Below are positions 4,160-24,103 of a stretch of DNA of 24,103 bases, in pieces. The notes beneath the pieces were generated by a model, which did no database searches, was not told the origin of the DNA, and was given only the letters and a program-made list of their open reading frames with translations. A program made the position numbers and the translations under genes. The stretch is from a virus: positions 1 through 24,103 of IMG/VR virus record IMGVR_UViG_3300001796_000006; one strand, given 5' to 3'. The stretch's first letter is position 1. Each line of letters starts with the position of its first letter.

Positions 4160-4188
4160 TCTATGCGGCTGCGAAAGGAGGGGCCTTT

Positions 4189-4335: not shown

Positions 4336-4350
4336 GGAAGGATGTGCGCG

Positions 4351-6651: not shown

Positions 6652-6664
6652 GGGGCGTGTGCGA

Positions 6665-8131
6665 GTGCTAAATCTTAACTTATACAGCGAGACCGAGAGG
6701 CTTAGCCGGCTGGTGGCGCGCGGCGCGAAAACGGCGCTGACGGATAAAGAGTTTTTAGAGCTAGAGATAGCGAAGTGGAAGCGCTCAGACCTGCGCAGGG
6801 CTCAGATCACCGGCGTGAAGTACTACAAGGGCGAGCACGACATCTTGCAGCGCAAGCGCACGGTCATCGGCCAGGACGGGGCGCTGCAGACGGTGGAGAA
6901 TCTGCCGAACAACCGCATCGTCGACAATCAGTACGCCAAGCTTGTTGACCAGAAGGTGAACTACCTTGTGGGGCAGAGCTTTTCGGTCGATACGGACAAC
7001 CAGCAGTACGCCAAGGCCCTATCTCAGATCTTCGATCGACGCTTTATGCGCGTGCTGCGGAACCTGTGCGAGGACTCGCACAACTGCGGCATCGCGTGGC
7101 TGTACGTGTACTACGACGATGCCGGGCGGCTCTGCTTTAAGCGGTGTGAGCCGTTTGAGATTTTGCCGTTTTGGGCTGATGCTGAGCACACGAAGCTTGA
7201 CTGTGTGGTGCGGCTGTACGAGGTGCTGGCCTATGAGGGAGCGCTTGAGCTAATCGTCGAGAAGGTTGAGGTGTACAAGGCATCCGGTGTGGAACGCTAC
7301 ACGCTGACCAACGGCAAGCTAGTGCCCGACACTGATGCAGTGGCCGCGCACGTGTCGCTCGTTGACGCCGACGGCAACCAAGCGGGGCTTAACTGGCAGC
7401 GCATACCCTTGATTGCGTTTAAGTACAACAACAAAGAAACGCCGCTCATTGCTCGCGTTAAGTCTCTTCAGGACGGCGTTAACTCCATGCTCTCTGACTT
7501 TCAGAACAACATGCAGGAGGACTCGCGCAATACGATCCTCGTCATCAAGAATTACGACGGCCAGAACCTCGCCGAGTTCAGGCACAACCTAGCGGCCTAC
7601 GGCGCGGTCAAGGTGCGCACCATTGACGGTGCTGAGGGCGGCGTCGACACTCTGACCGTGGAGGTAAACGCTGAGAACTACAAGGCCATCCTGCAGCTCT
7701 TGAAAAAGGCCATGATTGAAAACGCCCGCGGCTTCGATGCCAAGGACGACCGGTTAAGCAACAACCCTAACCAGATGAACATCCAGAGCATGTACTCGGA
7801 CATCGACCTAGACGCGAACGAGACGGAGACTGAGTACCAGGCTTCGTTTGAAGAGCTGCTGTGGTTTGTGAACGCGCATTTGGCTAACACCGGCCAAGGA
7901 GACTTTAGCGGGGATAAGGCTCAAATTAACTTTAAGCGCAGCGTACTGGTCAACGAGATGGCGGTGATTGAAAGTATCGTTAAGTCAGTGGGGATGCTAT
8001 CCGAACAAACGCTGCTAGCTAAGCATCCGTGGATTATGGACGTGAACGCAGAGCTTGAGCGACTGAAAAAGCAGCGCGCGGCAGAGGCTGCGGAGTATGC
8101 GCTGCCCGCTGCCGGCGGCGATGAGGAATGA
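6665..8131 (+). CDS. Portal protein (SPP1 gp6-like)
   Basis: Dodecameric portal at the unique capsid vertex through which DNA enters and leaves. The 488-residue length and the sequence (KVNYLVGQSFSVDTDNQQY, IAWLYVYYDDAGRLCFKR, WQRIPLIAFKYNNKETPLI, and the conserved SMYSDIDLDANETETEYQ region) match the SPP1/PBSX portal family. The start is chosen from AGGGGG at 6650-6655, which suits GTG 6665 (nine-base spacing); GTG 6659 is in frame but too close. A TTG at 6623 would overlap terL and has no signal. The C-terminal end is a Glu/Ala-rich helix. Its stop overlaps the start of the next gene (ATGA). Confidence 0.92.
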   Translation: MLNLNLYSETERLSRLVARGAKTALTDKEFLELEIAKWKRSDLRRAQITGVKYYKGEHDILQRKRTVIGQDGALQTVENLPNNRIVDNQYAKLVDQKVNYLVGQSFSVDTDNQQYAKALSQIFDRRFMRVLRNLCEDSHNCGIAWLYVYYDDAGRLCFKRCEPFEILPFWADAEHTKLDCVVRLYEVLAYEGALELIVEKVEVYKASGVERYTLTNGKLVPDTDAVAAHVSLVDADGNQAGLNWQRIPLIAFKYNNKETPLIARVKSLQDGVNSMLSDFQNNMQEDSRNTILVIKNYDGQNLAEFRHNLAAYGAVKVRTIDGAEGGVDTLTVEVNAENYKAILQLLKKAMIENARGFDAKDDRLSNNPNQMNIQSMYSDIDLDANETETEYQASFEELLWFVNAHLANTGQGDFSGDKAQINFKRSVLVNEMAVIESIVKSVGMLSEQTLLAKHPWIMDVNAELERLKKQRAAEAAEYALPAAGGDEE

Positions 8132-9162
8132 GAAACCAAGACTACTGGAAGCGCCGCATGGAGGTGCTAGAAGCGAGTCGGGCGCGCCAAAGCGTGGGGC
8201 TGATAGAGGAGTTTGACCGCCAGCACCAGCGCGCGGTGAGGGAACTAGACAAGGAGATATCCCGCTGGTACCGCCGCTTCGCCGCAAACAACGATATCAC
8301 CATGAGCGAGGCCAGGCGGCTCCTGACCACGCGCGAGCTGATGGAATTTCGGTGGGACGTACAGGACTATATCAAGTTCGGGCAAGAGAACGCGCTTGAC
8401 CAGCGGTGGATGCGGGAGCTAGAGAACGCTTCGGCGCGAGTGCACGTCTCAAGGCTTGAAGCGCTGAAGTTTCAGTTACAGCAGCAAGCGGAAGCGATCT
8501 ACGCAAATCAGCTAGATGCGGTAGATAAGCATTTGAGGCGTATCTACTCTGAGGGATACTATCGCACGGCCTTTGAGCTACAGCGCGGCGTCGGCGTCGG
8601 CTACAACCTGCATGCGCTAGACACACGACGGCTAGACCGACTGCTGGGCAGGCCGTGGGTGCCCGATGAGCGAACGTTCAGTGACAGGCTCTGGACGCAC
8701 AAGGCAACGCTTGTCGGCGAGCTGCAGACGCACTTAAAACAGGCCGTCATCACGGGGCAGCCGCCAGACGTGACGATTGGGCGTATAGCACAAGCCTTTA
8801 ACACCAGCAGGCACCGTGCCGGGAGGCTAGTCATGACGGAGTCCGCGGCCTTCGCGTCGATGGCGCAGCGCGACTGCTTCACCGACTTAGGCGTCGAACG
8901 CTACGAGATAGTGGCCACGCTAGATATGCTTACGTCGGAGATATGCCAAGAGCTGGACGGCACGGTCTTCCTGCTGCGTGACTACGCCGTTGGGGCGACG
9001 GCTCCGCCGTTTCATCCGTGGTGCCGAACGGTGACCGCCCCGTACTTCGACGATAATCCGAGCGAGCGCATCGCACGTGCGGCTGACGGTCAAGTGGAGC
9101 ATGTGCCGGCTAGTATGACGTATCGTGAGTGGTATAGGGCTTTTGTATCGGCAGGCGCCTAG
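8128..9162 (+). CDS. Minor head protein, SPP1 gp7 / Mu gpF family
   Basis: Head morphogenesis protein that binds the portal and is carried in the capsid in small numbers. The 344-residue protein has long charged helices in its first half and the Mu-F domain at about 214-307: ERYEIVATLDMLTSEICQEL, DGTVF and PPFHPWCRT, where the conserved Cys, Asp and His-x-x-Cys residues resemble a metal-binding centre. No toxin domain follows the Mu-F domain, so this is the short structural form. ATG 8128 overlaps the portal stop; GAGGA abuts it, so translation probably depends on coupling. Its stop codon lies inside a terminator stem. Confidence 0.9.
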   Translation: MRNQDYWKRRMEVLEASRARQSVGLIEEFDRQHQRAVRELDKEISRWYRRFAANNDITMSEARRLLTTRELMEFRWDVQDYIKFGQENALDQRWMRELENASARVHVSRLEALKFQLQQQAEAIYANQLDAVDKHLRRIYSEGYYRTAFELQRGVGVGYNLHALDTRRLDRLLGRPWVPDERTFSDRLWTHKATLVGELQTHLKQAVITGQPPDVTIGRIAQAFNTSRHRAGRLVMTESAAFASMAQRDCFTDLGVERYEIVATLDMLTSEICQELDGTVFLLRDYAVGATAPPFHPWCRTVTAPYFDDNPSERIARAADGQVEHVPASMTYREWYRAFVSAGA

Positions 9163-9178
9163 AAACTAGGTGCTTTTT
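9155..9178 (+). terminator. Intrinsic terminator overlapping the stop codon of the MuF gene
   Basis: GCGCCTAG (9155-9162) pairs with CTAGGTGC (9166-9173), eight pairs with one G-U, around an AAA loop, followed directly by TTTTT (9174-9178). The TAG stop (9160-9162) is the upper part of the stem. It separates low-copy portal and minor head genes from the abundant scaffold and capsid genes, so it may be partial or bypassed by antitermination. Confidence 0.75.
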
Positions 9179-9190
9179 GCTTGCCGTCTG

Positions 9191-9216
9191 TTTGGTATTT
9201 AAGACGTTAAACCAAA
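9191..9216 (+). other. Possible leader hairpin ahead of the scaffold gene
   Basis: TTTGG (9191-9195) pairs with CCAAA (9212-9216) and TTTAA (9198-9202) with TTAAA (9207-9211), closing a GACG loop with a two-base bulge. It lies in the 109-base gap between the MuF and scaffold genes. I see no convincing promoter in this gap, although one would be expected after a terminator. The stem is AT-rich and weak, so this is a low-confidence call. Confidence 0.3.
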
Positions 9217-9271
9217 AGACAAGTACTGGACTGAACCAGGTTAAAAAATGTATTGAAAGGGGCATTCACAC

Positions 9272-9802
9272 ATGAAGAAGGACGATCTAGTAAAGCTCGG
9301 GATTGATGAGGCACTGGCGGCTAAAGCGGCAGAGGCGTTTGCGGAGGAGCTGCGCGGCTACATCCCAAAAGCTCGGTTCGACGAGGTCAACGAGGCTAAG
9401 AAGCTGCTGGAAAAGGCAGACGCGGCAGGGCTGCAGGCTCAGCTCGCCAAGCTGCAGGAAGAAAGCAAGAAGGCGAAGGAGCACTACGACGCCGAACTTA
9501 AGAATCTGCAGCTAGGCAGCGCGGTAGATAAGGCGTTGCTCACCGCTAAGGCCAAGAACCTAAAGGCCGTGAAGGCGTTGCTGGAGCTAGATAAGCTCCA
9601 GATGGAGGGCGACACGGTCAAAGGGCTAGAAGACCAGCTAAAGAATCTGATGACCGGAGCTGACACTAAGTTCCTCTTTGCCGAGTCGCAGGCCATGATG
9701 AAGGGCTTTGTGCCCGGCGAGACCAAAGACGGCACGCCGAGCGCCGATAAGCCTGCGACCCTCGCGGAATCACTTAAGGCATTTTACACACCAAAAGCAT
9801 GA
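9272..9802 (+). CDS. Capsid scaffolding protein (phage GP20 family)
   Basis: Internal scaffold that directs capsid assembly and is absent from the mature virion. The 176-residue protein is highly charged and almost wholly helical, with a coiled-coil-like stretch at about 37-80 (Leu/Ala/Glu/Lys heptads, for example AKKLLEKADAAGLQAQLAKL). The following region, VDKALLTAKAKNLKAVKALL then LDKLQ, is the recognisable GP20 motif. GAAAGGGG upstream of ATG 9272 is the ribosome-binding site. It directly precedes the major capsid gene, as is usual for scaffolds. Confidence 0.9.
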   Translation: MKKDDLVKLGIDEALAAKAAEAFAEELRGYIPKARFDEVNEAKKLLEKADAAGLQAQLAKLQEESKKAKEHYDAELKNLQLGSAVDKALLTAKAKNLKAVKALLELDKLQMEGDTVKGLEDQLKNLMTGADTKFLFAESQAMMKGFVPGETKDGTPSADKPATLAESLKAFYTPKA

Positions 9803-9818
9803 AAGGCGGTAACTGACA

Positions 9819-10775
9819 ATGGCTATTACCTTGGCGCAAGCACGGCTTAACGTGCAGGACGACATCCAGAGAGGCGTAATCGACGAGTTCGCAAAGTCGA
9901 ACTTCTTGTTTAACAACATGACGTTTGACGATGCAGTATCCCCTGCCGGCGGCGGCGCAACGCTCACCTATGGCTACGCCAGGATTATCTCTCAGCCCAC
10001 TGCGGCCTTCAGGGCGATTAACGCTGAGTACGCGCCGCAGCACGTCAATAAGCAGCGCTACACTGTCGACCTGAAAGTGTTCGGCGGCTCGTTCGACGTT
10101 GACAGAATCATCGCCAGCATGGGCGGGCTAATTGACGAGGTAGCGCTGCAGATTCAACAGAAGACCAAAGCTGCCTCTGCGCTGTTTAACACCACTGTCA
10201 TTAATGGCGATGCAGCCGTAGACTCCAACGCTTTTGACGGGCTAAACAAGGCTGTGACGGGCAGCACTACCGAGCTAATCCCCACGGCGGCGATTGACCT
10301 GTCGACATCGGCAGCGGTAGACGCGAACTACAAAGCGTTTCTTGACGTGCTAGACGAGTTCCTGATGGGGCTTGATGGCCGTCCTTCGTTCATCGGCGGG
10401 AACACTAAACTTATTGCTCGTATCCGTGCCGCAGCTCGCAGGGCCTCGTCTTACACTGCGACACGCAACAACTTCGGGCAGCCGATTGAAATGTATAACG
10501 ATATCCCTCTCGTCGACTTCGGTGACAGGGTGGGGACTGTTGAGCCGGTGGTTGCGACCAACGCCACGACTGGCGAGACTTCGCTGTATGCTGCGCGGCT
10601 TGGGCTAGATGGCTTCCACGGCGTGAGTCTGGCTGGTGCTTCGCCTGTGCGGACATGGCTCCCTGACTTTAGGACTGCTGGCGCAGTAAAGCGCGGCGAG
10701 GTTGAAATGGTTGCGGCAGTGGCGCTAAAGGCCACGAAGGCCGCAGGCGTGCTCCGCAGAATCAAAGTGCAGTAG
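9819..10775 (+). CDS. Major capsid protein (HK97 fold)
   Basis: Shell protein of the head, 318 residues, a normal size for a PBSX/skin-type capsid without a protease delta domain. Features typical of the family include the N-terminal region leading to FLFNNMTFDD, then TYGYARIISQPTAAFRAINA, DLKVFGGSFDVDRIIASMGG and the C-terminal VEMVAAVALKATKAAGVLRR. AAAGGCGG lies 10 bases upstream of ATG 9819. The scaffold gene ends 16 bases before it. A stem-loop follows the stop, which could protect or terminate the abundant capsid transcript. Confidence 0.92.
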   Translation: MAITLAQARLNVQDDIQRGVIDEFAKSNFLFNNMTFDDAVSPAGGGATLTYGYARIISQPTAAFRAINAEYAPQHVNKQRYTVDLKVFGGSFDVDRIIASMGGLIDEVALQIQQKTKAASALFNTTVINGDAAVDSNAFDGLNKAVTGSTTELIPTAAIDLSTSAAVDANYKAFLDVLDEFLMGLDGRPSFIGGNTKLIARIRAAARRASSYTATRNNFGQPIEMYNDIPLVDFGDRVGTVEPVVATNATTGETSLYAARLGLDGFHGVSLAGASPVRTWLPDFRTAGAVKRGEVEMVAAVALKATKAAGVLRRIKVQ

Positions 10776-12918: not shown

Positions 12919-14232
12919 ATGGCACTAGGCGGCGGAACTTTTCTTACGCAAAACAAAGTGCTGCCCGGCGCGTACATCAACTTTATCAGCGCGGCGCGGG
13001 CCTCGGCAGAGCTGTCTGACCGAGGTGTTGCGGCGTTGCCGGTAGAGCTTGACTGGGGCGTGGACGATGCGGTATTTACGGTGACAGCAGACGAGTTCCA
13101 GAAGGAATCTTTCAAAATCTTCGGCTTCCCCTTTGACCACGAGAAGCTGAAGGGGCTGCGTGACCTTTTTAGGCATATCCACACCGGGCATTTCTACAAG
13201 CTGATGAACACAGGCGCAGCGGCGCAGAACACTTACGCGACAGCTAGACATCGCGGCGTGAGGGGCAACGACTTGCGGGTAGTTGTCGCGCAGAATGTGG
13301 ATGATCCTGCGCGCATGGACGTCTCGACTTTTCTTGATACGCAGCTCGTAGACAGACAGACTGTGCTACCGAACACGGATAACCTGCTCGATACGCCATG
13401 GGTTGTCTGGAAGACCAATGTGACGCTTCTAGCTACTGCGGGGATGCCTTTGCCCGGCGGCAGTAACGGCACTGCGCTAACCGGCACGCAGTATCAGGCA
13501 GCGCTCGACGCGCTGGAGTCTTACAGCTTCACTGCGCTTGGCTGCTTGGCTACTTCCGCGCCGATCATCGAGCTGTTTGTGCAGTTTACCCGGCGCATGC
13601 GCGATACCGTAGGTGTTAAGTTCCAAACGGTGGTGTACCGCACGCTGGCCGATTACGAAGGAGTTATCTCCGTAGAGAACACGGTGACGGATGCAGGTGC
13701 GCTAGCTACGTCCCTAATCTTCTGGGTTACAGGCGCGCAAGCCGGATGTGCGGTCAACCGCAGCCTGACGAATAGGCGCTACAACGGTGAGTTCACCGTA
13801 GCCACCAACTACAAGCAGTCGGAGCTCGAAGCGGGCATACTCGCGGGCAGATTCATGTTCCACAAAGTCGGGGATACCGTGCGAGTGCTTAAAGACATCA
13901 ACACCTTCGTCACAGTCACTGATGAGAAGTCTAGCGACTTTAGCAGCAACCAGACTATCCGGGTAATTGACCAGATCGCGAACGATATCGCAGCACTCTT
14001 TAACACGAAGTACCTAGGCAACGTGCCGAACGACGCTGCCGGCCGGGTGAGCCTCTGGAGCGACATCGTGGCGCATCACAAGCAGCTGCAGACGATTAGG
14101 GCTATCGAAGGGTTTAACCCCGACCTAGTCAGGGTAGAGCGAGGCACAGAGCGGAACGCCGTAGTAGTGCATGACGTCATCACGCCGGTTAGCGCGATGG
14201 AGAAGCTCTATATGACTGTGGTTATCAGCTAA
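12919..14232 (+). CDS. xkdK: Contractile tail sheath protein (XkdK-like)
   Basis: Main contractile component of the tail. The 437-residue protein starts with LPGAYINFISAARASAELSD then RGVAALPVELDWG, the signature of PBSX/XkdK-type sheaths, and has ATARHRGVRGNDLRVVVAQN, a typical handshake/loop region, in the middle. The C-terminal half contains VTGAQAGCAVNRSLTNRRYN, then DINTFVTVTDEKSSDFSSNQ and a KLYMTVVI end, the parts that form the conserved sheath core. This is the gene that shows the virion is a myovirus-like particle. The tube gene follows 16 bases later. Confidence 0.95.
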   Translation: MALGGGTFLTQNKVLPGAYINFISAARASAELSDRGVAALPVELDWGVDDAVFTVTADEFQKESFKIFGFPFDHEKLKGLRDLFRHIHTGHFYKLMNTGAAAQNTYATARHRGVRGNDLRVVVAQNVDDPARMDVSTFLDTQLVDRQTVLPNTDNLLDTPWVVWKTNVTLLATAGMPLPGGSNGTALTGTQYQAALDALESYSFTALGCLATSAPIIELFVQFTRRMRDTVGVKFQTVVYRTLADYEGVISVENTVTDAGALATSLIFWVTGAQAGCAVNRSLTNRRYNGEFTVATNYKQSELEAGILAGRFMFHKVGDTVRVLKDINTFVTVTDEKSSDFSSNQTIRVIDQIANDIAALFNTKYLGNVPNDAAGRVSLWSDIVAHHKQLQTIRAIEGFNPDLVRVERGTERNAVVVHDVITPVSAMEKLYMTVVIS

Positions 14233-14248
14233 AGAAGGAGGTCATCAG

Positions 14249-14719
14249 ATGGGCGTTTTTATGAATGCCAAGGACGCGATAAGCGCGTCACTGGCGGAGT
14301 GCTTCATCACCATTGAGGGCAACCGCTATAACTTCATGCAGGCGATTGACCTTGAGGCGACGTTTGAAAAGAGCAAGACTGAGGTGCCTATCCTCGGGAA
14401 GCCCGGCAAAGGCAACAAGGCCACCGGCTGGGTGGGCACAGGCTCGGCCACTTTCCACTACAACACAAGTCTTTTCCGGGAGCTGATGTACCGCTACAAG
14501 AACACCGGCGAGGACATTTACTTCGACATCCAGGTGACTAACGAAGACCCAACGGCCAGCGTCGGCAGACAGACCGTTATCCTCAAGGGCTGCAACTTTA
14601 ACGGCGGGACACTGGCGAAATTCGACGCTGACGCGGAGTATCTTGAAGAAACGCTCGAGTTCACCTTCGAGGACTTCGAGATGCCTGAGAAGTTTAGCTT
14701 GCTTGCGGGCATGCGCTAG
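14249..14719 (+). CDS. xkdM: Tail tube protein (XkdM-like)
   Basis: 156-residue inner tube protein. ISASLAECFITIEGNRYNFM, VPILGKPGKGNKATGWVGTG, FRELMYRYKNTGEDIYFDIQ and the C-terminal LEETLEFTFEDFEMPEKF are the XkdM/DUF2001 pattern. AAGAAGGAGG upstream of ATG 14249 is a strong ribosome-binding site, as expected for an abundant protein made with the sheath. It lies between sheath and chaperone, the canonical order. Confidence 0.94.
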   Translation: MGVFMNAKDAISASLAECFITIEGNRYNFMQAIDLEATFEKSKTEVPILGKPGKGNKATGWVGTGSATFHYNTSLFRELMYRYKNTGEDIYFDIQVTNEDPTASVGRQTVILKGCNFNGGTLAKFDADAEYLEETLEFTFEDFEMPEKFSLLAGMR

Positions 14720-14732
14720 GGAGGGCCGCTAA

Positions 14733-15164
14733 ATGGGAGGACTGTCATCGTTTCTCGCGCAGAATGCGCTAAAAGTTGAGAGCGTGAAGTATGTGGCTTC
14801 AAAGCGCTTCCTAGACGCGGATGGGCAGCCCATTGCTTGGGAGATTGTCTGCATCACGTCGACCGAAGACGAAGCGCTAAAGACGGCTAGTAATAAGCGC
14901 GTACAAGTGCCCGGCAAACGTCATGTCTATGTGCCGGAAGTGGATTATCCACTTTACACCGGCCGGCTTGCTGCAAAGTGCACTAAATACCCGAACCTAA
15001 ACGACGCTGAGCTACAAGGCAGCTACGGTGTGATGGGCGCAGATGCCCTGCTAAAGGCCATGCTGACGCCGGGTGAGTACGCGGATTACCTAGTCAAGGT
15101 GCAAGAAATCAACGGCTTCGATGTTCCCTTTGCCGAGAAGGTGGAAGAGGCAAAAAACTCATAA
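14733..15164 (+). CDS. xkdN: Tail assembly chaperone, short form (XkdN-like)
   Basis: 143-residue chaperone that coats the tape measure protein during tail-tube assembly, analogous to lambda gpG. The YVASKRFLDADGQPIAWEIV start and the YPNLNDAELQGSYGVMGADA followed by LLKAMLTPGEYADYL are the XkdN pattern. GGGAGGG lies just upstream of ATG 14733. The last codons GCA AAA AAC TCA TAA carry a -1 slippery site, so part of the ribosomes are expected to make the longer form described separately. This short form is probably the more abundant product. Confidence 0.93.
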   Translation: MGGLSSFLAQNALKVESVKYVASKRFLDADGQPIAWEIVCITSTEDEALKTASNKRVQVPGKRHVYVPEVDYPLYTGRLAAKCTKYPNLNDAELQGSYGVMGADALLKAMLTPGEYADYLVKVQEINGFDVPFAEKVEEAKNS

Positions 15165-15340
15165 GTGGAGACGATACCGAGGCGAATATCGCCTACTATT
15201 GCCTCCACAAACTAAGACTTCTTCCGTCTCAGTTCTTGGCGCTTGATGAGAATGAGCGTGCCTTCATAGTGGCCGCCATCCAGACTAGAATCGAGCGCGA
15301 GCCGCAGCCAAAACCACAAAGGAGATACGGGCGAAAGTAG
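14733..15340 (+). CDS. xkdN: Tail assembly chaperone, -1 frameshift fusion form
   Basis: Predicted 202-residue product made when ribosomes slip one base back on A_AAA_AAC (15152-15158). The first 142 residues equal the short form; reading then continues in the -1 frame from CTC at 15158 to TAG at 15338-15340, adding 60 residues: LISGDDTEANIAYYCLHKLR, LLPSQFLALDENERAFIVAA and a basic tail. This extension has the HKLR-x-LPS and D-x-NER-AFI-x-A pattern of the second half of PBSX-like chaperones, so it is genuine coding sequence that has no start of its own. It is analogous to lambda gpGT, where the T part binds the tube protein. The minor-to-major ratio sets tail assembly. Confidence 0.9.
15152..15208 (+). 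promoter_or_regulatory. Programmed -1 ribosomal frameshift signal
   Basis: The heptamer A AAA AAC (15152-15158) is in the correct X_XXY_YYZ phase with the chaperone frame. A two-tier stem-loop starts six bases later: GTGGAG (15165-15170) pairs with CTCCAC (15203-15208), and inside it AGGCGA (15180-15185) pairs with TCGCCT (15189-15194) around an ATA loop. Slippery site, spacer and structure are the full set of elements expected of -1 frameshifting. Confidence 0.92.
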
Positions 15341-15363
15341 CGGAGAGGTCACTTCTCCGCTAC
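15337..15363 (+). other. 10-bp perfect hairpin between chaperone extension and tape measure gene
   Basis: GTAGCGGAGA (15337-15346) pairs perfectly with TCTCCGCTAC (15354-15363) around a seven-base loop. It overlaps the stop codon of the frameshift extension and ends 20 bases before the tape measure start. There is no T-run after it. It may limit transcription or translation of the low-copy tape measure protein, or protect the upstream mRNA. Confidence 0.65.
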
Positions 15364-15383
15364 AGCCTAAAGCAGGTGAGAGC

Positions 15384-17492
15384 ATGGCTACAATACAGAC
15401 CTCTATTAGACTGACCGACGGCATGACTCCTGCCTTTAGGAGTATGCATATCGCGATGACGAACATAATCGACAGCTTTGAGACGATGCAGGTTGCCTCA
15501 AGCAATGCCGTTGACGTCAATCGCATCTTCGCCGCAAGGCAAGAGCTGACGAAGGCCGAAGCGACGTTTAACCGCGTAGAGCAAGAGATTAGAGAAGCCG
15601 ACCAAGCACAGCAGCAGCTGAATGCCCGCGTAAGAGGCGGGGAAGACGCGGCAAGCGATTTTTACGACAAGATGAAGAAGGTTGCGGGCGCGATTGCCGC
15701 CTACGTCGGGGTTACGAAGACGATTGCGCTAGCCGACGAGCTCACCCGTACCAAGGCGAGGCTTGCCCTCATGAACGACGGTCTGCAAACCACGGCCGAG
15801 CTGCAGAACATGATCTTTGCCTCTGCTCAAAGGACACGGTCGTCCTACATCGATACCGCGCAAGCAGTCGCGAAGCTAGGCATCCTCGCGGGAGGGGCGT
15901 TCGCGAGTAACGATGAGCTGCTGATGTTTGCCGAACAGATGAACAAGCAGTTTAGGATAGGCGGCGCGAGTGTCATGGAGCAGAGCTCGGCCATGTATCA
16001 GCTGACGCAAGCTATGGCCGCAGGTAGGCTGCAGGGCGATGAGTTCCGGTCGATCATGGAAAACGCGCCGATGCTCGCACAGGCGATAGCGAGTACAGCC
16101 GGCAAGACCATCGGCGAGCTGCGCGTCATGTCAAGCGAAGGGCTGCTTACGGCAGAGCTCATCAAAAAAGCGATGTTTGCCGCGGCAGCCGAGACAGATG
16201 CGAAGTTCGCACGTCTGCCGGTAACATGGGGCGAGGTCTGGACTTATATCGCGAACCAAGCGGTGCAGTCTTTCGACCCAGTACTTGATAAAGTGGGGAG
16301 ACTCACGCAAGACGCAGAGTTCACCCAAACGGTTAATGCCATAGTTGGGGGTCTTGCATTCATGGCAGGGGCCGCGGCGTGGGCGTTTGGCGTCACGACT
16401 GAGGTCTTCTCCTTCATCGTGGATAACTGGCCGATTATCGGGCCGATAGTTTGGGGCATAGCCGTTGCTACGGCCGCTTACACGGGCGCGCTGCTAGCGA
16501 ACAGTATCGCGCAAAGCATAGTTACTGCCCGGCACACGGCGCAGGCTATCGCGCTCGCCGTGCAGACTAAGACCACCGTTGCCGCGGCGGCGGCGGCCAA
16601 AGGGCTGACTGTAGCCCAGTGGGCGCTTAACAGTGCGCTGCTGGCTTCTCCTCTGACGTGGATGGCGGCGAAGGCTATAGCCTTAGTTGCGGTTTTTTAC
16701 TTGGCGATAGGCGCGGTAAACCGACTTGCAGGCACCTCGATAAGCGCAACAGGTGTTATCTTCGGGGCGTTCTCGACTTTAGGCGCGTTCCTGTGGAACT
16801 TGTTCCTGGGGTTCCTCGAATTGGCGTTTGGCGTGATTAACGCCATGGTTAACCCGTTTATCAGGTTCGCCAATTTTCTAGGCAACGTGTTCACCAACCC
16901 TATATCGTCAATCATCTACCTGTTCCACAGCATGGCCGACAATGTGCTGGCGACGCTTCAACGGGTAGCTACGGCCATGGACTTCGTTTTTAGGACTAAC
17001 ATGGCGGCTACCATAGCGGATTGGCGCTCGGGCTTGCGGGGCATGGCAGACGCAGCAGTGGCGCGGCACGCGCCGAACGAAAGTTATAAGCGCATTATGG
17101 ACGAACTGAACCTGAGCGTCACGGGCACAGGGCTTAGGCGCTGGGCGTACTCCGATGCCTGGAACGTGGGTTACAAGGCGGGGCAAAACCTCTTTGCCGG
17201 TTTCGGCGCCGACACTGTGATGGACGATATCCGCAAGTGGTCAGCGCTTACAGCGGAAAATACCGCAGCCATGAAAGAAGCTATGGACATAACAACAGAA
17301 GAGCTAAAGTACATGCGCGACTTGGCGGAGCGGGAAGTCATTAACCGCTTCACGACAGCAGAGATCAGCGTAAGCCTTGGCGGCGTGACGAATAACGTGA
17401 ACTCCGCTATGGACTTAGACGGTGTTGTGTCCTACCTAGAGACAGAGCTTCACCGGGCTATGGAGACGGCAGCTGAGGGGGTGCACGGCTAG
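15384..17492 (+). CDS. Tape measure protein
   Basis: 702-residue protein that fixes tail length; assembled in the tube lumen with the chaperones. N-terminal residues (ATIQTSIRLTDGMTPAFRSM) are typical of PBSX-like tape measures. A coiled coil lies at about 50-85 (RQELTKAEATFNRVEQEIRE). The tape-measure domain follows with GRLQGDEFRSIMENAPMLAQ. About residues 317-450 hold several hydrophobic segments (VGGLAFMAGAAAWAFGV, WPIIGPIVWGIAVATAAYTG, AIALVAVFYLAIGAV), typical of the part that inserts into the host membrane during DNA ejection. At roughly 28 aa per 4 nm it predicts a short tail near 100 nm, an estimate only. CAGGTGAG precedes ATG 15384. Confidence 0.93.
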   Translation: MATIQTSIRLTDGMTPAFRSMHIAMTNIIDSFETMQVASSNAVDVNRIFAARQELTKAEATFNRVEQEIREADQAQQQLNARVRGGEDAASDFYDKMKKVAGAIAAYVGVTKTIALADELTRTKARLALMNDGLQTTAELQNMIFASAQRTRSSYIDTAQAVAKLGILAGGAFASNDELLMFAEQMNKQFRIGGASVMEQSSAMYQLTQAMAAGRLQGDEFRSIMENAPMLAQAIASTAGKTIGELRVMSSEGLLTAELIKKAMFAAAAETDAKFARLPVTWGEVWTYIANQAVQSFDPVLDKVGRLTQDAEFTQTVNAIVGGLAFMAGAAAWAFGVTTEVFSFIVDNWPIIGPIVWGIAVATAAYTGALLANSIAQSIVTARHTAQAIALAVQTKTTVAAAAAAKGLTVAQWALNSALLASPLTWMAAKAIALVAVFYLAIGAVNRLAGTSISATGVIFGAFSTLGAFLWNLFLGFLELAFGVINAMVNPFIRFANFLGNVFTNPISSIIYLFHSMADNVLATLQRVATAMDFVFRTNMAATIADWRSGLRGMADAAVARHAPNESYKRIMDELNLSVTGTGLRRWAYSDAWNVGYKAGQNLFAGFGADTVMDDIRKWSALTAENTAAMKEAMDITTEELKYMRDLAEREVINRFTTAEISVSLGGVTNNVNSAMDLDGVVSYLETELHRAMETAAEGVHG

Positions 17493-18199
17493 TGTATACC
17501 ATGTATCTTGATGGTGTAGCTTTGCCGGTGACTCCGGCTAAGCTAGAGACTAAAATCAAGAACCAGAATAAAACAGTCAACTTGATTAACCACAGCGAGG
17601 TTAATCTTCTCAAGGACGCAGGGCTGACTGAAATCCGACTTGAGGCGCCCATCCCCCACGTGCGGTATCCCTTCGCCGTATACCCAAACGGTTTTAGGGC
17701 CGCCGCTTTTTACTTAGCTAAACTGGAGCAGCTAAAGACGAGTAAGAAGCCGTTTCAGTTCATCTGTGTGCGCGTATCGCCGGCGGGGCTGCCGCTGTTT
17801 GACACCAACATGCGCGTATCGCTTGAGGGTTACAAGATAGACGAGCAGGCTACAGAGGGGCAAGGGCTGTCCGTCACCATTGAGCTAAAGCAGTATCGCG
17901 ATTTTGGCGTTAAGCGCATCACCGTGCCTGCTGCGGCGCCTCAGCCGCAAACGGCGAGCGCACCGGCTAGCAGCCCCACGCCTGTTACCGCTAGCGCGAC
18001 AGTAGAGCCCACAAGACCCGCGCACTCAGCACCTAAGCCTAAGACCTATACAGTGCAGGCCGGGGATACACTGTGGGCGATCGCACGCAGAACGCTTGGC
18101 AACGGCAACAGGCACCCGGAGATATTTAGCTTAAACAGGTCTGTCATCTCTAGTCCTAACCGCATCCGGCCGGGGCAGATTCTGGCCCTGCCTAGCTAG
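17492..18199 (+). CDS. xkdP: LysM-domain tail/baseplate protein (XkdP-like)
   Basis: 235-residue protein: an N-terminal beta-rich domain (about 1-150), a Pro/Ala/Ser/Thr-rich linker (about 150-185), and one C-terminal LysM domain (TYTVQAGDTLWAIARRTLGN to ILALPS) that binds peptidoglycan. In PBSX-like phages XkdP joins the tape measure or hub to the baseplate; the LysM probably guides the tube through the cell wall. GTG 17492 overlaps the upstream TAG; GAGGGGGTG supports it, though ATG 17501 is in frame. Confidence 0.92.
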   Translation: MYTMYLDGVALPVTPAKLETKIKNQNKTVNLINHSEVNLLKDAGLTEIRLEAPIPHVRYPFAVYPNGFRAAAFYLAKLEQLKTSKKPFQFICVRVSPAGLPLFDTNMRVSLEGYKIDEQATEGQGLSVTIELKQYRDFGVKRITVPAAAPQPQTASAPASSPTPVTASATVEPTRPAHSAPKPKTYTVQAGDTLWAIARRTLGNGNRHPEIFSLNRSVISSPNRIRPGQILALPS

Positions 18200-18209
18200 G
18201 AGGTGAGTG

Positions 18210-19166
18210 ATGTTTGAGCTCTTAATCAGCGCAGGCAGTAGCATCTTGCATCCTGCGGTGCTGGATGATGTGCAGTGGGTAACGGAGCGTAAGGGGCAGC
18301 CGGGGCGCCTAAAGTTTACGCTGGTGCAGGACGAGGCCGCGCAGTTTGAAGAGGGCGGGGCGGTTAGGTTCCGTGCCAACGGAGCGGATATCTTTTTCGG
18401 GTTTGTGTTTAACATGGAGCAGGATAAGGACGGGCTTGTCAGTGTCTTGGCCTATGACCAGCTACGGTATTTCAAGAATAAGGACACCTACGCCTATAGC
18501 AACAAGACAGCAGATGAGCTGGTGCGCATGCTAGCGCAAGATTTCAACCTACGGACAGGCACGCTTGATAACACCGGGTTTAAGATTGCGGCGCGTGTAG
18601 AGGACAACAAGACGCTGTTTGACATCGTGCAGAACGCGCTCGACCTTACGCTTGAAAACCGCAGGCAGCTGTTTGTCCTCTACGACGACTTCGGTAAGTT
18701 AGCGCTTCGGAACGTGGCAGATATGCGGCTAGACGTGCTAATCGATGAACAGACGGCAGGGAACTACCAATACGGCTCCTCCATCGACGGCGACACCGCC
18801 AATCGGATCAAGCTGGTGCGAGACAACGGCAAGACCGGTAAGCGCGAGGTCTATATCGCGCAGGACAGCGGCAACATCAATCGGTGGGGCCTGCTGCAGC
18901 ACTTCGCGACTATCGATGACGGCGTCAACGGCAAAGCCAAGGCTGATGCGCTACTTGCGCTCTACAATCGGAAAATGCGCAGCCTAAGCATTGCTGACGC
19001 CTTTGGAGACGTGCGTGTGCGCGCCGGCAGCTCGATCCCAGTGCGCCTACGGATAGGTAGCGCCGAGGTTCAGAACTTTATGCTGGTAGAGCGGGCCACA
19101 CACAAGTTTAAGCGCGACGAGCACACCATGACTTTAGCGCTGAGAGGAGGCGATTTCCTTGCCTAG
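18210..19166 (+). CDS. xkdQ: Baseplate hub protein (XkdQ-like, gpD fold)
   Basis: 318-residue hub protein of the late-control-D/XkdQ family that closes the tail tube and carries the spike. Seen: the N-terminal FELLISAGSSILHPAVLDDV and WVTERKGQPGRLKFTLVQDE with GADIFFGFVFNMEQDKDG, then VLAYDQLRYFKNKDTYAYSN, VEDNKTLFDIVQNALDLTLE and IDGDTANRIKLVRDNGKTGK. TAGGAGGTGAG gives good spacing to ATG 18210 (GTG 18207 is an in-frame alternative). Its stop overlaps the start of the next gene. Confidence 0.92.
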   Translation: MFELLISAGSSILHPAVLDDVQWVTERKGQPGRLKFTLVQDEAAQFEEGGAVRFRANGADIFFGFVFNMEQDKDGLVSVLAYDQLRYFKNKDTYAYSNKTADELVRMLAQDFNLRTGTLDNTGFKIAARVEDNKTLFDIVQNALDLTLENRRQLFVLYDDFGKLALRNVADMRLDVLIDEQTAGNYQYGSSIDGDTANRIKLVRDNGKTGKREVYIAQDSGNINRWGLLQHFATIDDGVNGKAKADALLALYNRKMRSLSIADAFGDVRVRAGSSIPVRLRIGSAEVQNFMLVERATHKFKRDEHTMTLALRGGDFLA

Positions 19167-19563
19167 CCTTATCGAGATTATTAAGCAAGCGGCGGTTGAG
19201 GCGGTTACTGCTTCTAGCCCCTGCGCGGTCTTGCTGGGTGAGGTCGTAAGCGCGTCGCCTTTGAAGGTGCGCGTGGAGCAGCGGTTGACGCTAGAAGCCC
19301 CTCACCTCATCCTGTCTACGCTAGTGCAAGATTTTGAGGTCGACATGACGGTCGACCACTTTACCGAGAACGACGCATTCCTCGACACCACGCATTCGCA
19401 TCCGCTGACTGGCGCGGCCAACTTCGATTCGACTCACAAGCACGCCTACAGTGGGCGCAAAAAGTTCTTAGTGCATCTTGGCTTAAAGGTAGGTGAGACT
19501 GTTATGCTGGTACAAGTACAGGGCGGGCAGAAGTTTATAGTGCTAGACAGGGTAAGAGCATGA
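19159..19563 (+). CDS. xkdR: DUF2577 baseplate protein (XkdR-like)
   Basis: 134-residue protein with PSLIEIIKQAAVEAVTASSP, GEVVSASPLKVRVEQRLTLE and VGETVMLVQVQGGQKFIVLD, the DUF2577 pattern of an OB-fold spike/hub partner. TTG 19159 is the start: AGGAGGCG lies about nine bases upstream and no ATG or GTG fits. It contains HSHPLTG and THKHAYSG, two His pairs that could bind metal, as in spike tips. It overlaps XkdQ and XkdS-like genes. Confidence 0.88.
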   Translation: MPSLIEIIKQAAVEAVTASSPCAVLLGEVVSASPLKVRVEQRLTLEAPHLILSTLVQDFEVDMTVDHFTENDAFLDTTHSHPLTGAANFDSTHKHAYSGRKKFLVHLGLKVGETVMLVQVQGGQKFIVLDRVRA

Positions 19564-19961
19564 TCCCGGTAACAGGCAGTGCTTTGCAGGCCGACTTTAC
19601 GATTACTGAAGGGCCCTCGCACACGTACAAGCTTGACGTTGACCGTTTGACCGTAGCCGGGTACACGGATGAGCTCGCGGCGATGGCGCAGGCCATCTAC
19701 CTTATCCTCAGCATCGAGCGTTATCAGTACGTGATATACAACTGGGATTACGGCATTGAGCTGCAGGACTTGATAGGGCAGCCGGTGCCGTTTGCGATTC
19801 CTGAGATAAAGCGGCGCATCACCGAGGCCCTGCTGCAAGATACCCGCATAACAGACGTCACTGACTTCGCGTTCACGCTGGCACGAGGTATGGTGCATGT
19901 ACGTTTTAAGGCCACTACAGTCTTTGGTGATGTGGAGGCAGAAAGGACGGTGGCGCTTTAG
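19560..19961 (+). CDS. xkdS: Baseplate wedge protein (DUF2634, XkdS / gp25-like)
   Basis: 133-residue protein with TYKLDVDRLTVAGYTDELAA, MAQAIYLILSIERYQYVIYN and WDYGIELQDLIGQP, the DUF2634/gp25-like motif of the baseplate wedge initiator. ATG 19560 overlaps the stop of the previous gene by four bases and its own TAG overlaps the GTG of the next gene. The gene order (DUF2577, DUF2634, baseplate J, DUF2313) is standard for PBSX-type phages. Confidence 0.92.
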   Translation: MIPVTGSALQADFTITEGPSHTYKLDVDRLTVAGYTDELAAMAQAIYLILSIERYQYVIYNWDYGIELQDLIGQPVPFAIPEIKRRITEALLQDTRITDVTDFAFTLARGMVHVRFKATTVFGDVEAERTVAL

Positions 19962-21016
19962 TGTTTGAGTCAATCACCTTTGAAGTTATCCTGCAGCGCA
20001 TGCTCGACAGAGTGCCTAGCTCGCTTGATAGGCGGCAGGGCAGCATCATCTACAACGCCCTGGCGCCGGCGGCTGCGGAACTGCAGAACATGTACATCGA
20101 GCTTAACTGGGTGCTCAGCCAGTCGTTTGCCGACACCGCGATTAGGGAGTATCTAGTCAGGCGCTGCCGAGAGCGCGGTATAACTCCCTACCCCGCGACG
20201 CCTGCGGTACTAGAAGGCAGAGCTAACCTTGACGTGCCGCTTGGGGCAAGATTTACGCTCGGTGCACTGAACTACCGGGTGACCGAGAGGCTAGCGTTTG
20301 GGGTGTTCAAGCTCGAATGCGAAGTGGCCGGAGCGGTCGGAGGGCAAAACCTCGGCGCTCTCCTCCCTATCGACTACATCGACGGGCTGACCAGCGCAGA
20401 GGCGGTTCTGGTGCTCGTGCCGGGAGAAGACGAGGAAGCGACAGAGCATCTGCGCGAACGGTATTTCGCGGGGCTTACCTCGCAAGCGTTCGGTGGGAAC
20501 GTTGAGGACTACAGGCAAAAAGTCAACGCTCTGGCAGGCGTAGGCGGCGTAAAAGTCTACCCGACATGGAACGGCGGAGGAACAGTGCGGCTAGCTATCA
20601 TCAGCTCCGACTATACCGCGCCTACAGCTGCGCTGCTCGCTGATGTGCAAACCGCCGTAGACCCGGTGCAAAACCAAGGAGCAGGGCTTGGGATAGCTCC
20701 GGTCGGGCATGTAGTGACAGTGACAGGGGTAACTGCAGTGCCGATAACTATACAGTCGGTCATCTCGTACCAGCCGGGATGGACGTGGGCCGACGTCAGA
20801 CCGCATGCCGAAGCCGCTGTCGATGCTTACTTCGCCGAGCTCCGGCGCGCATGGGCAGACAGCGCAAACCTAATCGTTCGAGTGAGCCAGATTGAAACCC
20901 GGCTGCTGAACACGGCTGGAGTGCTTGACGTCAGCAGCACCTTGATAGACGGCCTTGACCAGAACCGTATGTTAGGCAGCGACGAGGTGCCGGTGAGGGG
21001 TGGGCTAAGTGGATAG
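19961..21016 (+). CDS. xkdT: Baseplate J-like protein (XkdT-like)
   Basis: 351-residue wedge protein of the baseplate-J family, forming the baseplate periphery that connects the hub to tail fibres. FESITFEVILQRMLDRVPSS then LDRRQGSIIYNALAPAAAEL opens the domain; GLTSQAFGGNVEDYRQKVNA and LAGVGGVKVYPTWNGGGTVR are central hallmarks, followed by VQTAVDPVQNQGAGLGIAPV. It starts with GTG 19961 within the upstream TAG and has no strong ribosome-binding site, so it is translationally coupled. Confidence 0.95.
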   Translation: MFESITFEVILQRMLDRVPSSLDRRQGSIIYNALAPAAAELQNMYIELNWVLSQSFADTAIREYLVRRCRERGITPYPATPAVLEGRANLDVPLGARFTLGALNYRVTERLAFGVFKLECEVAGAVGGQNLGALLPIDYIDGLTSAEAVLVLVPGEDEEATEHLRERYFAGLTSQAFGGNVEDYRQKVNALAGVGGVKVYPTWNGGGTVRLAIISSDYTAPTAALLADVQTAVDPVQNQGAGLGIAPVGHVVTVTGVTAVPITIQSVISYQPGWTWADVRPHAEAAVDAYFAELRRAWADSANLIVRVSQIETRLLNTAGVLDVSSTLIDGLDQNRMLGSDEVPVRGGLSG

Positions 21017-21749
21017 GCAGCTGATAGATTACCTGCCGACGGTGCTGAGAGACGTACGCGAGTACGCCCACGTGACAGCCGCTGAGCAGCCAGAAGTGGA
21101 TGCGTTATGGAGCGAGACGGCTAAGGCTCTAGACAATGCGACGGTGCTAACTGCTGACGAGTACGGCGTAGCTCGCTGGGAGCGCATGCTCGGCATCACG
21201 CCACCGGCGACAAGGACGCTAGAGGATAGGCGCGCAGCGGTGTTGAGCGCGATCTCTCCGCCGCTGCCTTTTACGCTAAGGCGTCTGCAGCAGAAACTTG
21301 CACCGCTAGGCGGCGCGGCGCAAGTTAGCCCTTTATCGTATCACCTAGACGCCGACTTTGAGGCGAACAGGCCCCACAACATAGACGCCTTAGTTGCGCT
21401 ACTAAGGGCGATGCTCCCGGCTAATCTAACGTACCAGATAATTATCATCTCTCATGTTCGTGTCGCCCTTAGCGCGACCGTCGCCCCTCATCGTTTCGAG
21501 TACGAAATAGCCGGCACCTCGCCAGACACGAACACTCTCGGGGTTTTACTTAGCAGCGCGTTTGGCTTGGCTACCTCCATGGAGGGGCATCGCTATCTGC
21601 ACACGTTCAGCGGGGTCAGCTCTGCCGGAGAAGAGCCGGAGATAAACACCATAGGAAGTGTGGCGAGTCGCGGCATATCGCCAGACCTCGACGCCATCAA
21701 TGCCGCGTTCCCTTACCACCTCTGTGGCGAATCTGAGCGCGAGGTATGA
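21009..21749 (+). CDS. xkdU: Tail protein DUF2313 (XkdU/YmfQ-like)
   Basis: 246-residue baseplate tail protein. RQLIDYLPTVLRDVREYAHV, ALWSETAKALDNATVLTADE, GVARWERMLGITPP and RRLQQKLAPLGGAA are typical of DUF2313 proteins (gpI-like), which link wedge and fibres. The C-terminal quarter (after about 155) is extended and Gly/Ser rich with a Thr/Ser-rich TFSGVSSAGEEPEINTIGS; it is less conserved. GTG 21009 overlaps the previous stop; GGTGAGGGG lies upstream. A clear break then follows with the ribosome-binding site of the next gene. Confidence 0.9.
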   Translation: MDRQLIDYLPTVLRDVREYAHVTAAEQPEVDALWSETAKALDNATVLTADEYGVARWERMLGITPPATRTLEDRRAAVLSAISPPLPFTLRRLQQKLAPLGGAAQVSPLSYHLDADFEANRPHNIDALVALLRAMLPANLTYQIIIISHVRVALSATVAPHRFEYEIAGTSPDTNTLGVLLSSAFGLATSMEGHRYLHTFSGVSSAGEEPEINTIGSVASRGISPDLDAINAAFPYHLCGESEREV

Positions 21750-21765
21750 AAGGAGGTGACACCAC

Positions 21766-22077
21766 ATGGCGCTACTAACAGCCGCCGCTATCGAGGGGTA
21801 TAGAGAATACACCCGCCGTACCGTAGCGTATGCGATGTACAGGGTAGCCGGGGTTTTGCATCGAGCGAATATATCTAGCGTCACGGCCTTGCCTGATGGG
21901 AGGCTCGCTATTGACTTTACCATCGATCACACACTCACTGGCGATATCACTGTGACGGAAGTGCAGCTGTACAACACTAGTGGAGTGCTCTGGCTCACCA
22001 AGACTGAAAACATCGTCCGACGTGCCGTACAGGAAGGTATCCTGTACCGCTTCACGTTCACAATCCAAGAAGGGTAG
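21766..22077 (+). CDS. Unknown 103-residue tail-tip protein
   Basis: Compact protein (TRRTVAYAMYRVAGVLHRAN, ALPDGRLAIDFTIDHTLTGD, LYNTSGVLWLTKTENI) in the place where PBSX-like phages carry a small protein between DUF2313 and fibres. Beta-rich, with no motif that names a function. AAAGGAGGTGACACC lies directly upstream of ATG 21766, a very strong ribosome-binding site, suggesting high copy number, as for a structural protein. Possible fibre-attachment or baseplate-cap protein; not certain. Confidence 0.75.
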   Translation: MALLTAAAIEGYREYTRRTVAYAMYRVAGVLHRANISSVTALPDGRLAIDFTIDHTLTGDITVTEVQLYNTSGVLWLTKTENIVRRAVQEGILYRFTFTIQEG

Positions 22078-22085
22078 GTGGGAGT

Positions 22086-22604
22086 ATGCACAATCAGACG
22101 AGCTGGTTAGACCACGTTACGCAGTGGCCGAACAGAAGGCGCATTACAACTAATGCGGATGGCAGTGTGGACGTAGTACGCGAACAAGGGGTCATCATCC
22201 AGCAAGGCACGCCGCAAAGCGCTACAAATTTCAACAACATCGAAAACGGCGTCCAGGCCGCGCAAGTAGCCTTGCAGGTGTTGCTGCACTACTTTTTGCA
22301 GTTTGACCGTTGGGTTAGACTGCAGGTGGCAAACATCTTAGCGGAGTTTCTGAGCGAAGTGCGCACCGTAACGCTCACGAACACGCAACGGTTCCCGTTT
22401 AGCGACAGCATTATCACGCTAAACCTGCTCACGGCACGCCGGACGCTCAACTACGACATAGGGTGGGAGATCGCTGCTGCAGCTGGCAACGTTGGAGACA
22501 TCAGAGTGAGCGACAAGCAGCTAAACGGATTCAAGGTCGAATACACAGGCAGCGCGACTAGTGTAATGCTAACGCTGCGCATTAAAGGAGGTATGCTCAT
22601 ATGA
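22086..22604 (+). CDS. Tail fibre-like / adapter protein
   Basis: 172-residue protein. The N-terminus (TSWLDHVTQWPNRRRITTNA, then EQGVIIQQGTPQSATNFNNI and ENGVQAAQVALQVLL) is the widespread opening module of Firmicutes phage tail-tip proteins, probably a docking segment; the C-terminal part (about 85-172) is beta-rich (TVTLTNTQRFPFSDSIITLN, SVMLTLRIKGG). A short hydrophobic-plus-coiled region lies in between. It likely trimerises or attaches the following receptor-binding gene products to the baseplate. AAAGGAGG belonging to the next gene lies within its 3' end (about 22583-22590). Confidence 0.78.
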   Translation: MHNQTSWLDHVTQWPNRRRITTNADGSVDVVREQGVIIQQGTPQSATNFNNIENGVQAAQVALQVLLHYFLQFDRWVRLQVANILAEFLSEVRTVTLTNTQRFPFSDSIITLNLLTARRTLNYDIGWEIAAAAGNVGDIRVSDKQLNGFKVEYTGSATSVMLTLRIKGGMLI

Positions 22605-22963
22605 TAGTTGTCCATAGAAACGCAGGCGTGAAGGTCGCTCACCAGGTCTCCGGTACAAGCATTACCTTTGCCGATGAGCTGACGCTAAACTTGGCTAGGT
22701 ACCAGAGGGACTGGCACGTCCGCATCGACATATGCAGCAACAAGGACAACATGCTGGTAGTGGGCGCCGCGGCAGGATTGCGCTATGTCGCTCAGCTGGA
22801 GATACCCGCCACAGCGTACGTCGCGTCGGCAGAAAGCCCCCCCGTGGCCGTCGCAGAAGGACAGGGCCCTGTGCCGCATGCCGCGCCGGAGCCTCTGCCC
22901 CTCGACATGGGGGCAGTAACGCTGGCACTTTGGAGTCTAGAAGGAGGACAACCGCATGAGTAA
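22601..22963 (+). CDS. Small protein preceding the DGR-type target gene
   Basis: 120-residue protein of unknown family: beta-rich first 75 residues (VVHRNAGVKVAHQVSGTSIT, WHVRIDICSNKDNMLVVGAA), then a Pro/Ala/Val/Glu-rich low-complexity tail (ESPPVAVAEGQGPVPHAAPE). ATG 22601 has AAAGGAGG ten bases upstream; it overlaps the preceding gene by four bases and the target gene by eight. Tight coupling suggests it folds with, chaperones or mounts the diversified protein. Function not assigned. Confidence 0.7.
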   Translation: MIVVHRNAGVKVAHQVSGTSITFADELTLNLARYQRDWHVRIDICSNKDNMLVVGAAAGLRYVAQLEIPATAYVASAESPPVAVAEGQGPVPHAAPEPLPLDMGAVTLALWSLEGGQPHE

Positions 22964-24059
22964 TTTTGATCTAGTGAATTTGGCGTTAAAGGCTACGTGC
23001 CCTGGAAACGAGATCATTCTGGACAACGCTGGCTTGCCTAGTGTCATGGTTCGTATCCCTCGGTTTAGGATTTCCGACGTGATCACTGGAGGCAGTAGCG
23101 GCACCCATCCGGCATTTATCGTGAATGGCGCAGAAGTGCCTGAAATATTCATCTCGAAATTTCAGAACGTCACAGGCCCTAATGGGCGGGCATACAGCCT
23201 GCCGGGCGAAGACCCACGCACCTTCTTAAGCTTTGACGCCGCCAGAACCGCCTGCGAGCTAAAAGGCGCCGGGTGGCATCTAATGACTAACGCAGAGTGG
23301 GCTGCCCTTGCGCTATGGTGCCGCAGAAACAACCTTATGCCAAGAGGCAACAACCTAAACGGCAGAGACCACGGCGAGGCTACCGTAGTGGCCATACCTA
23401 CATCGGACTCAGCAGGGGACACTTTTCAGGCAGGCGAGACTATAGGCAGGGTCGCCACGGGCACGGGGCCCGTGCAATGGTCTCATAACGGAGAAGTAAC
23501 TGGGGTGTTCGATTTAAACGGCAACGTGTGGGAGTGGGTAGGAGGGTACAGAACCGTCGAAGGCGAATTGCAGGTTCTGCCTAACAACAATGCGGCGTCC
23601 ATACTAAGTAGCCAAGCGGTCGGCAGCACGGCATGGAGGGCTATACTGCAGGACGGCTCTCTAGTTACCCCCGGCACAGCGGGCAGCTTGAAGTGGGACT
23701 ACTCGGCGGCCGTACCTCCTGGAGGCACAGGAGGGTACGCATTCAGGCTCAACACAGTCATAGCTAACCCTGCAGATAACGACACAGCTCACGGTACTAA
23801 CGCATTCGCAACTCTTGCGGCAGCAGGTGGGGTGTCCGTACCGGAAATCCTGCGCGCACTGGCACTGATGCCTGCAGATGCGGGAGACCACGCAAGCGAT
23901 AACATGTGGATGCGAAACCGCGGAGAGCGCTTCGCGTGTCGCGGCGGTGATTGGTTCGGCGGTTCCTCTGCTGGCGTGTTCGCCTGTCACTGCAGCGACG
24001 CCCGCTCCGGCGTCGGCGCGGTCATCGGCTTCCGCTCCGCTTTCATTCCGGGTATCTGA
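22956..24059 (+). CDS. FGE-sulfatase/C-type-lectin-fold receptor-binding protein, candidate DGR target
   Basis: 367-residue tail protein. The middle shows the formylglycine-generating-enzyme-like (C-type-lectin-related) fold: GWHLMTNAEWAALALWCRRN (about 106-125, cf. the RLPTEAEWE motif) and FDLNGNVWEWVGG (about 185-197, cf. GNVWEW). The C-terminus, CRGGDWFGGSSAGVFACHCS followed by DARSGVGAVIGFRSAF (about 328-363), is the conserved scaffold RGGxWxxGxxAGVF...RS...GFRxA of DGR variable domains. Residues 1-60 lack this fold and may attach it to the baseplate. AAGGAGG at 22941-22947 sets ATG 22956. As last tail gene it probably binds the host receptor. No retroelement enzyme is visible inside the window; the target status is inferred from the domain and position. 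Catalytic FGE cysteines are not apparent, so enzyme activity is not expected. Confidence 0.9.
   Translation: MSNFDLVNLALKATCPGNEIILDNAGLPSVMVRIPRFRISDVITGGSSGTHPAFIVNGAEVPEIFISKFQNVTGPNGRAYSLPGEDPRTFLSFDAARTACELKGAGWHLMTNAEWAALALWCRRNNLMPRGNNLNGRDHGEATVVAIPTSDSAGDTFQAGETIGRVATGTGPVQWSHNGEVTGVFDLNGNVWEWVGGYRTVEGELQVLPNNNAASILSSQAVGSTAWRAILQDGSLVTPGTAGSLKWDYSAAVPPGGTGGYAFRLNTVIANPADNDTAHGTNAFATLAAAGGVSVPEILRALALMPADAGDHASDNMWMRNRGERFACRGGDWFGGSSAGVFACHCSDARSGVGAVIGFRSAFIPGI
23928..24047 (+). other. Putative DGR variable region (VR) of the target gene
   Basis: Codons about 325-364. A is nearly absent: only six or so A bases occur between 23930 and 24049, much fewer than in the rest of the gene, as expected when template adenines are replaced. 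Many codons at the exposed positions end in C or T and are of the NNY type (GAT, TTC, GGC, TCT, CAC, AGC, GAC, GGC, GTC), which fits mutagenesis of template AAY codons. The 3' GC-rich segment GGCTTCCGCTCCGCT resembles the constant initiation-of-homing end. The template is not in the window, so exact limits are estimates. Confidence 0.75.
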
Positions 24060-24071
24060 TATCTGGATATC
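24058..24071 (+). other. Short hairpin at the target-gene stop codon
   Basis: GATAT CTGG ATATC forms a five-pair AT-rich stem with a tetraloop; it overlaps the TGA stop (24057-24059). TATCTG is repeated around it (24052, 24060, 24068). Weak; it may be chance. Confidence 0.3.
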
Positions 24072-24091
24072 TGAGAATCTGGCGAGAAGGG

Positions 24092-24103
24092 GGCCGGGAG
24101 GCC
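24092..24103 (+). other. GRNA-loop hairpin cut by the window end
   Basis: GGCC (24092-24095) and GGCC (24100-24103) flank the loop GGGA, which fits the GRNA loop pattern of hairpins placed after DGR variable regions. The left arm continues as GAAGGG, so the full stem probably extends past the window. It could instead be the stem of a terminator. Confidence 0.5.

Follow-up and report, generated by a model that had tools for sequence, protein, structure and literature searches.

In the DGR of Bordetella phage BPP-1, mtd with its variable repeat (VR) is followed by avd, the template repeat (TR) and the reverse transcriptase (RT) gene brt, an order that represents the commonest DGR layout and is found in over half of the catalogued elements (PMC6642488). 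Efficient homing in BPP-1 requires a hairpin just after the VR, the loop of which follows the consensus GRNA (Guo et al., PMC3240598). The same gene order is seen in the Faecalibacterium phage FP_Lagaffe, in which an Mtd-like target, an Avd-like gene, TR and RT are located behind a tail and baseplate module; its TR and VR differ exclusively at adenines (13/13 mismatches at A), and two variable regions have been reported (PMC11792537). At the protein level, TaqVP from Thermus aquaticus (PDB 5vf4) combines an FGE-subtype C-type-lectin fold with a VR at its extreme C-terminus, and its variable residues are solvent-exposed and form a putative binding site (PMC6328139).

Here we describe a viral DNA stretch of 24,103 bp (the window), a linear fragment that makes up one entire IMG/VR record, together with a second IMG/VR record of 4366 bp that overlaps its end (IMGVR_UViG_3300001796_000053, referred to as L165). 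The evidence as a whole is best explained, in our view with very little doubt, if the window holds the target half of a BPP-1-type DGR in a PBSX-like tailed phage. Taken together, the window and L165 share with BPP-1 the gene order, the adenine-specific differences between VR and TR, Avd and RT, a GC-rich hairpin immediately behind the VR (loop GRNA), and a target situated at the phage tail. They differ from it in the target, which is a TaqVP-like protein instead of Mtd, and in the tail, which is contractile and PBSX-like. FP_Lagaffe is about 67% identical to the window at the DNA level over 41% of the query; one variable region is seen in the window and L165, compared to the two of FP_Lagaffe. 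Comparable systems have been described before and the element is ordinary in kind. What it illustrates is that an adenine-poor VR and a hairpin alone suffice to recognise the target half of a DGR on an incomplete viral contig, and that the other half can be recovered.

The phage and its last tail gene

The following features were assigned in the window:

5395..10775, + strand: genes for terminase large subunit, portal and minor head protein (PHROG scan), and a capsid-positioned ORF
9819-10775, + strand: ORF, putative major capsid gene (by position only)
12919..22963, + strand: PBSX/Mu-like contractile tail and baseplate module preceding the target gene (Pfam and PHROG scans)
22956..24059, + strand: variable protein of 367 aa with an FGE-subtype C-type-lectin fold, final gene of the tail module (PF03781, PHROG 2889, TaqVP homology, AlphaFold2 model)
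23927..24041, + strand: VR of 115 bases, about amino acids 325-362 (TR match, adenine poverty)
24024..24041, + strand: constant 3' end of the VR, ATCGGCTTCCGCTCCGCT, candidate initiation-of-mutagenic-homing (IMH) site by analogy with BPP-1
24042..24082, + strand: spacer separating the VR from the hairpin; it includes the stop codon (24057-24059) and direct repeats of ATCTG and is conserved in near relatives
24083..24103, + strand: post-VR hairpin, incomplete at the window end (fold z = -3.8)

Judging from its terminase, portal and minor head genes, the window belongs to a phage rather than to a tail-like particle alone. The tail module encodes sheath, tube, tape measure, LysM, YqbQ, DUF2577, sheath initiator, baseplate J, Gp48 and small tail proteins; the sheath corresponds to PHROG 279, the tape measure to PF20155 and YqbQ to PF24032 at 5e-115 in the Pfam and PHROG scans. 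These scans bear out the PBSX-like contractile-tail setting proposed in the initial annotation, and the virus is a PBSX-like tailed phage, probably residing as a prophage.

The ORF at 22956-24059 is present and encodes the C-terminus quoted in that annotation, which had described the product as a DGR variable protein with an FGE-like C-type-lectin fold. This description agrees with family matches, homology and modelled structure alike. The 367-aa product matches the FGE-sulfatase family PF03781 at 33.9 bits (cut-off 23.3) and PHROG 2889 at 415 bits. TaqVP is its best solved relative (phmmer 3.7e-59, residues 20-364), homologous over nearly the whole length and 34% identical in the structural alignment, albeit from another organism. 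An AlphaFold2 model computed from 37 input sequences (from the window and the related loci) has a mean pLDDT of 93 and superimposes on TaqVP with a TM score of 0.91; the Treponema variable protein (TvpA) and the BPP-1 Mtd variants are matched weakly (E about 5e-4 for Mtd).

A match to PF03781 is also what an ordinary FGE/C-type-lectin tail protein would give, one whose C-terminus merely resembles DGR variable domains and undergoes no targeted mutagenesis, and the RGG-W...GFR scaffold is common to FGE-fold proteins. Base composition argues against such a protein, in that adenine depletion is confined to the VR: the 3' end of the gene harbours the lowest-adenine 105-nt stretch on the + strand of the entire window, with 5% adenine vs 24.5% across the remainder of the gene. 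Adenine poverty of this kind is expected of a VR if template adenines have been replaced. The repeat had been placed at 23928-24047; its true limits are 23927-24041. Identity between VR and TR stops at 24041, and the same segment terminates the identity in the relatives L001-L010. This 3' end of the VR is constant, and the (GC)14 and 21-bp IMH elements of BPP-1 are not recognisable in it as such.

The missing half on an overlapping record

No RT was detected anywhere in the 24,103-bp window, and a search of both of its strands for a TR-like internal repeat found none. The window ends within the post-VR hairpin, and a search with its terminal bases retrieved L165, the first 72 bases of which are identical to the final 72 of the window (72/72). 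Contigs may break at VRs, where the VR/TR repeat and the heterogeneity of VRs would disturb assembly, and DGR counts based on RTs may consequently undercount targets. Across the window and L165 the order is that of BPP-1, with the variable protein and its 3' VR followed by the hairpin, avd, TR and RT. The latter three genes and repeats reside on L165 and none of them in the window record, so that their continuity with the target is that of two overlapping records:

L165:97-432: avd, lying between the end of the window and the TR (NF033474, PF22296)
L165:473-587: TR of 115 nt, 577 nt downstream of the VR
L165, open to 1811: RT gene, after the TR (RVT_1, 76.6 bits; motifs GNLTSQ and YMDD)

The initial annotation had predicted that a DGR-type RT, an avd gene and a template repeat of 100-140 bases differing from the VR at adenines only would lie downstream, and each was found. 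The Avd protein scores 122.8 bits against the equivalog NF033474 (cut-off 80) and 105.9 bits against PF22296. The RT, whose start is likely the TTG at L165:756, begins about 0.7 kb past the window end at 24103 and is followed by amidase and holin genes. Beyond these lysis genes L165 carries a tRNA-Leu(CAA) (3246-3330) and, on the - strand, a thiolase (acetyl-CoA acetyltransferase) gene (3437-4366). Because the tRNA-Leu and thiolase genes follow, the record probably crosses the prophage/host boundary and includes the attachment site and host DNA.

The VR (23927-24041) and the TR (L165:473-587) agree at every one of the 95 non-adenine template positions. The 15 mismatches fall without exception among the 20 template adenines (nine to G, five to T and one to C), and the probability that 15 random mismatches would all land on A is 6.5e-15. 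Replacement of 15/20 adenines, or 75%, is exactly what random substitution at every adenine would be expected to give. The TR has a unique match in the window, the runner-up stretch reaching 49%. Thirteen codons bear adenines, from none of which a stop codon can be reached, and about 7e11 different proteins are possible. These adenine-only differences, along with the hairpin, avd and RT, speak against an ordinary lectin-fold tail protein and make it exceedingly improbable; that reading had already been refuted by the comparison of TR and VR. A search of IMG/VR for a second VR allele of the same phage, using the TR with its adenines as N and the pattern of the upstream variable protein gene, returned none beyond L165.

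The hairpin likewise spans both records. The window supplies the 5' arm CGAGAAGGGGGCC (24083-24095), the loop GGGA (24096-24099) and the first four bases of the 3' arm (24100-24103); with L165 the structure reads CGAGAAGGGGGCC-GGGA-GGCCCCCTTCTCG, a perfect 13-bp stem capped by a 4-nt loop (z -3.8). The loop fits the GRNA consensus, whereas the stem is longer than the reported 7-10 bp and the spacer, counted from the end of VR/TR identity, measures 41 nt vs 4-34 nt (PMC3240598). The features by which DGRs are recognised were found as follows: mismatches between TR and VR at A only, a DGR-type RT adjoining the TR (on L165), Avd between target and TR, a CLec/FGE-type fold with a C-terminal VR, and a GC-rich GRNA-loop hairpin 3' of the VR whose stem and spacer somewhat exceed the published range.

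Relatives of the variable protein are encoded at 80 loci in IMG/VR and 79 in GTDB; of the 111 loci with at least 2.5 kb of downstream sequence, 73 have an RT in it. Adenine-directed VR/TR pairs were present in 87 of the relatives examined, in most cases offset by 490-710 nt, and 1059/1084 of their mismatches fall at template adenines. The design of the search favours this proportion, since mismatches away from A are penalised and a pair is retained only when at least 70% of its mismatches are at A; the comparison of the window VR with the L165 TR is independent of this search. In 62 of the 87 TR-bearing relatives the equivalent place is taken by a GC-rich stem (7 bp or more) closed by a 4-nt loop, vs 18 of 1740 random places. 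In six relatives, including L001, L002, L004 and L010, the loop just after the VR is GCAA, which is outside the GRNA consensus published for phage DGRs. Conservation of the spacer (24042-24082) in near relatives extends past its coding part (CCGGGxATCTGATATCTGG).

Comparison of the window VR with the TRs of the close relatives L001-L004, L007 and L010 gives 17-25 mismatches at non-A positions. Most simply, L165 derives from the same phage as the window; because the TRs of the other close relatives differ to this extent, it would at the least come from a very closely related one. The window's virus might instead have lost its cassette, L165 belonging to a sister phage and the VR being a fossil or diversified only by another phage's retroelement. 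There is precedent among the relatives, in that no avd, TR or RT directly follows the VR in L005, L006, L008 and L009. However, L165 continues the exact 72-base end of the window and supplies the rest of its hairpin. The L165 TR agrees with the VR at 95/95 non-A positions, whereas the TRs of other relatives differ from it at 17-25. We therefore regard cassette loss as very unlikely; a fossil VR in the window's phage was rejected once L165 had been found. Avd of L165 is closest to that of L001 (87%), which also encodes the closest relative of the variable protein. The RT is nearest to those of L002 and L010 rather than L001, which suggests that DGR modules may recombine.

A proposed role in adsorption

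By analogy with BPP-1, a transcript of the TR would be reverse-transcribed by a complex of RT and Avd that inserts random bases opposite adenines, and the resulting cDNA would replace the VR, with the constant 3' end and the hairpin as guides. Up to 13 codons would thereby be randomised on an exposed face of the C-type-lectin domain, and tail tips with new binding properties would be selected as in BPP-1. Position and homology mark the variable protein as a putative receptor-binding protein of the tail tip; it would bind a host surface structure, and the cassette would vary the cells to which the phage can adsorb. Host-range switching of the BPP-1 kind may be the outcome.

As this function is read from position and homology only, the DGR could be genuine and its target something other than a receptor binder, for instance a tail chaperone or decoration protein. 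Against this stand the location of the gene at the end of the tail module, with the DGR and lysis genes coming next in relatives, and the observation that tail structure proteins constitute most viral DGR targets in several clades (PMC8144416). We consider a non-receptor target unlikely and favour a variable receptor-binding protein.

Relatives without a cassette

The four relatives lacking avd, TR and RT (L005, L006, L008 and L009) all originate from sample 3300006674, and in each the VR region leads directly into phage genes. Compared with the TR of another relative from this sample, L007 (L007:1524-1637), the VRs of L006, L008 and L009 show one mismatch at 88 non-A positions and 15 mismatches at A. 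Between L006 and L009, identity is 64% in the 120 nt that precede the VR and 77% across the gene body, whereas within the VR it is 98% for non-A sites and 44% for A sites. Because their flanks differ strongly while the non-A sites of the VR agree, it is probable that the genes diverged first and that a common type of template was then copied into these VRs. Does one phage's retroelement diversify another phage's tail? The cassette-less relatives raise this question, and we tentatively entertain, at well below even chances, that phages share the retroelement and that these VRs were overwritten in trans from another phage's template. Recent loss of the cassette is an alternative source of the L006/L009 pattern, and misassembly is possible too because the cassette-less contigs hold some N bases.

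A further relative, L020, matches the template of L012 with nine of ten VR mismatches at A, has a frameshifted-looking avd and lacks TR and RT; it looks like a decaying cassette. Templates serving more than one target are already known (PMC6642488, PMC11792537), and several bacterial genomes among the relatives contain second variable-protein genes without an RT of their own (L208/L196, L209/L229, L216/L179, L214/L226 and L207/L195). These remote second targets show zero non-A mismatches to the TR of the other locus, which is found on the same or another contig, at distances of 22-36 kb where both share one.
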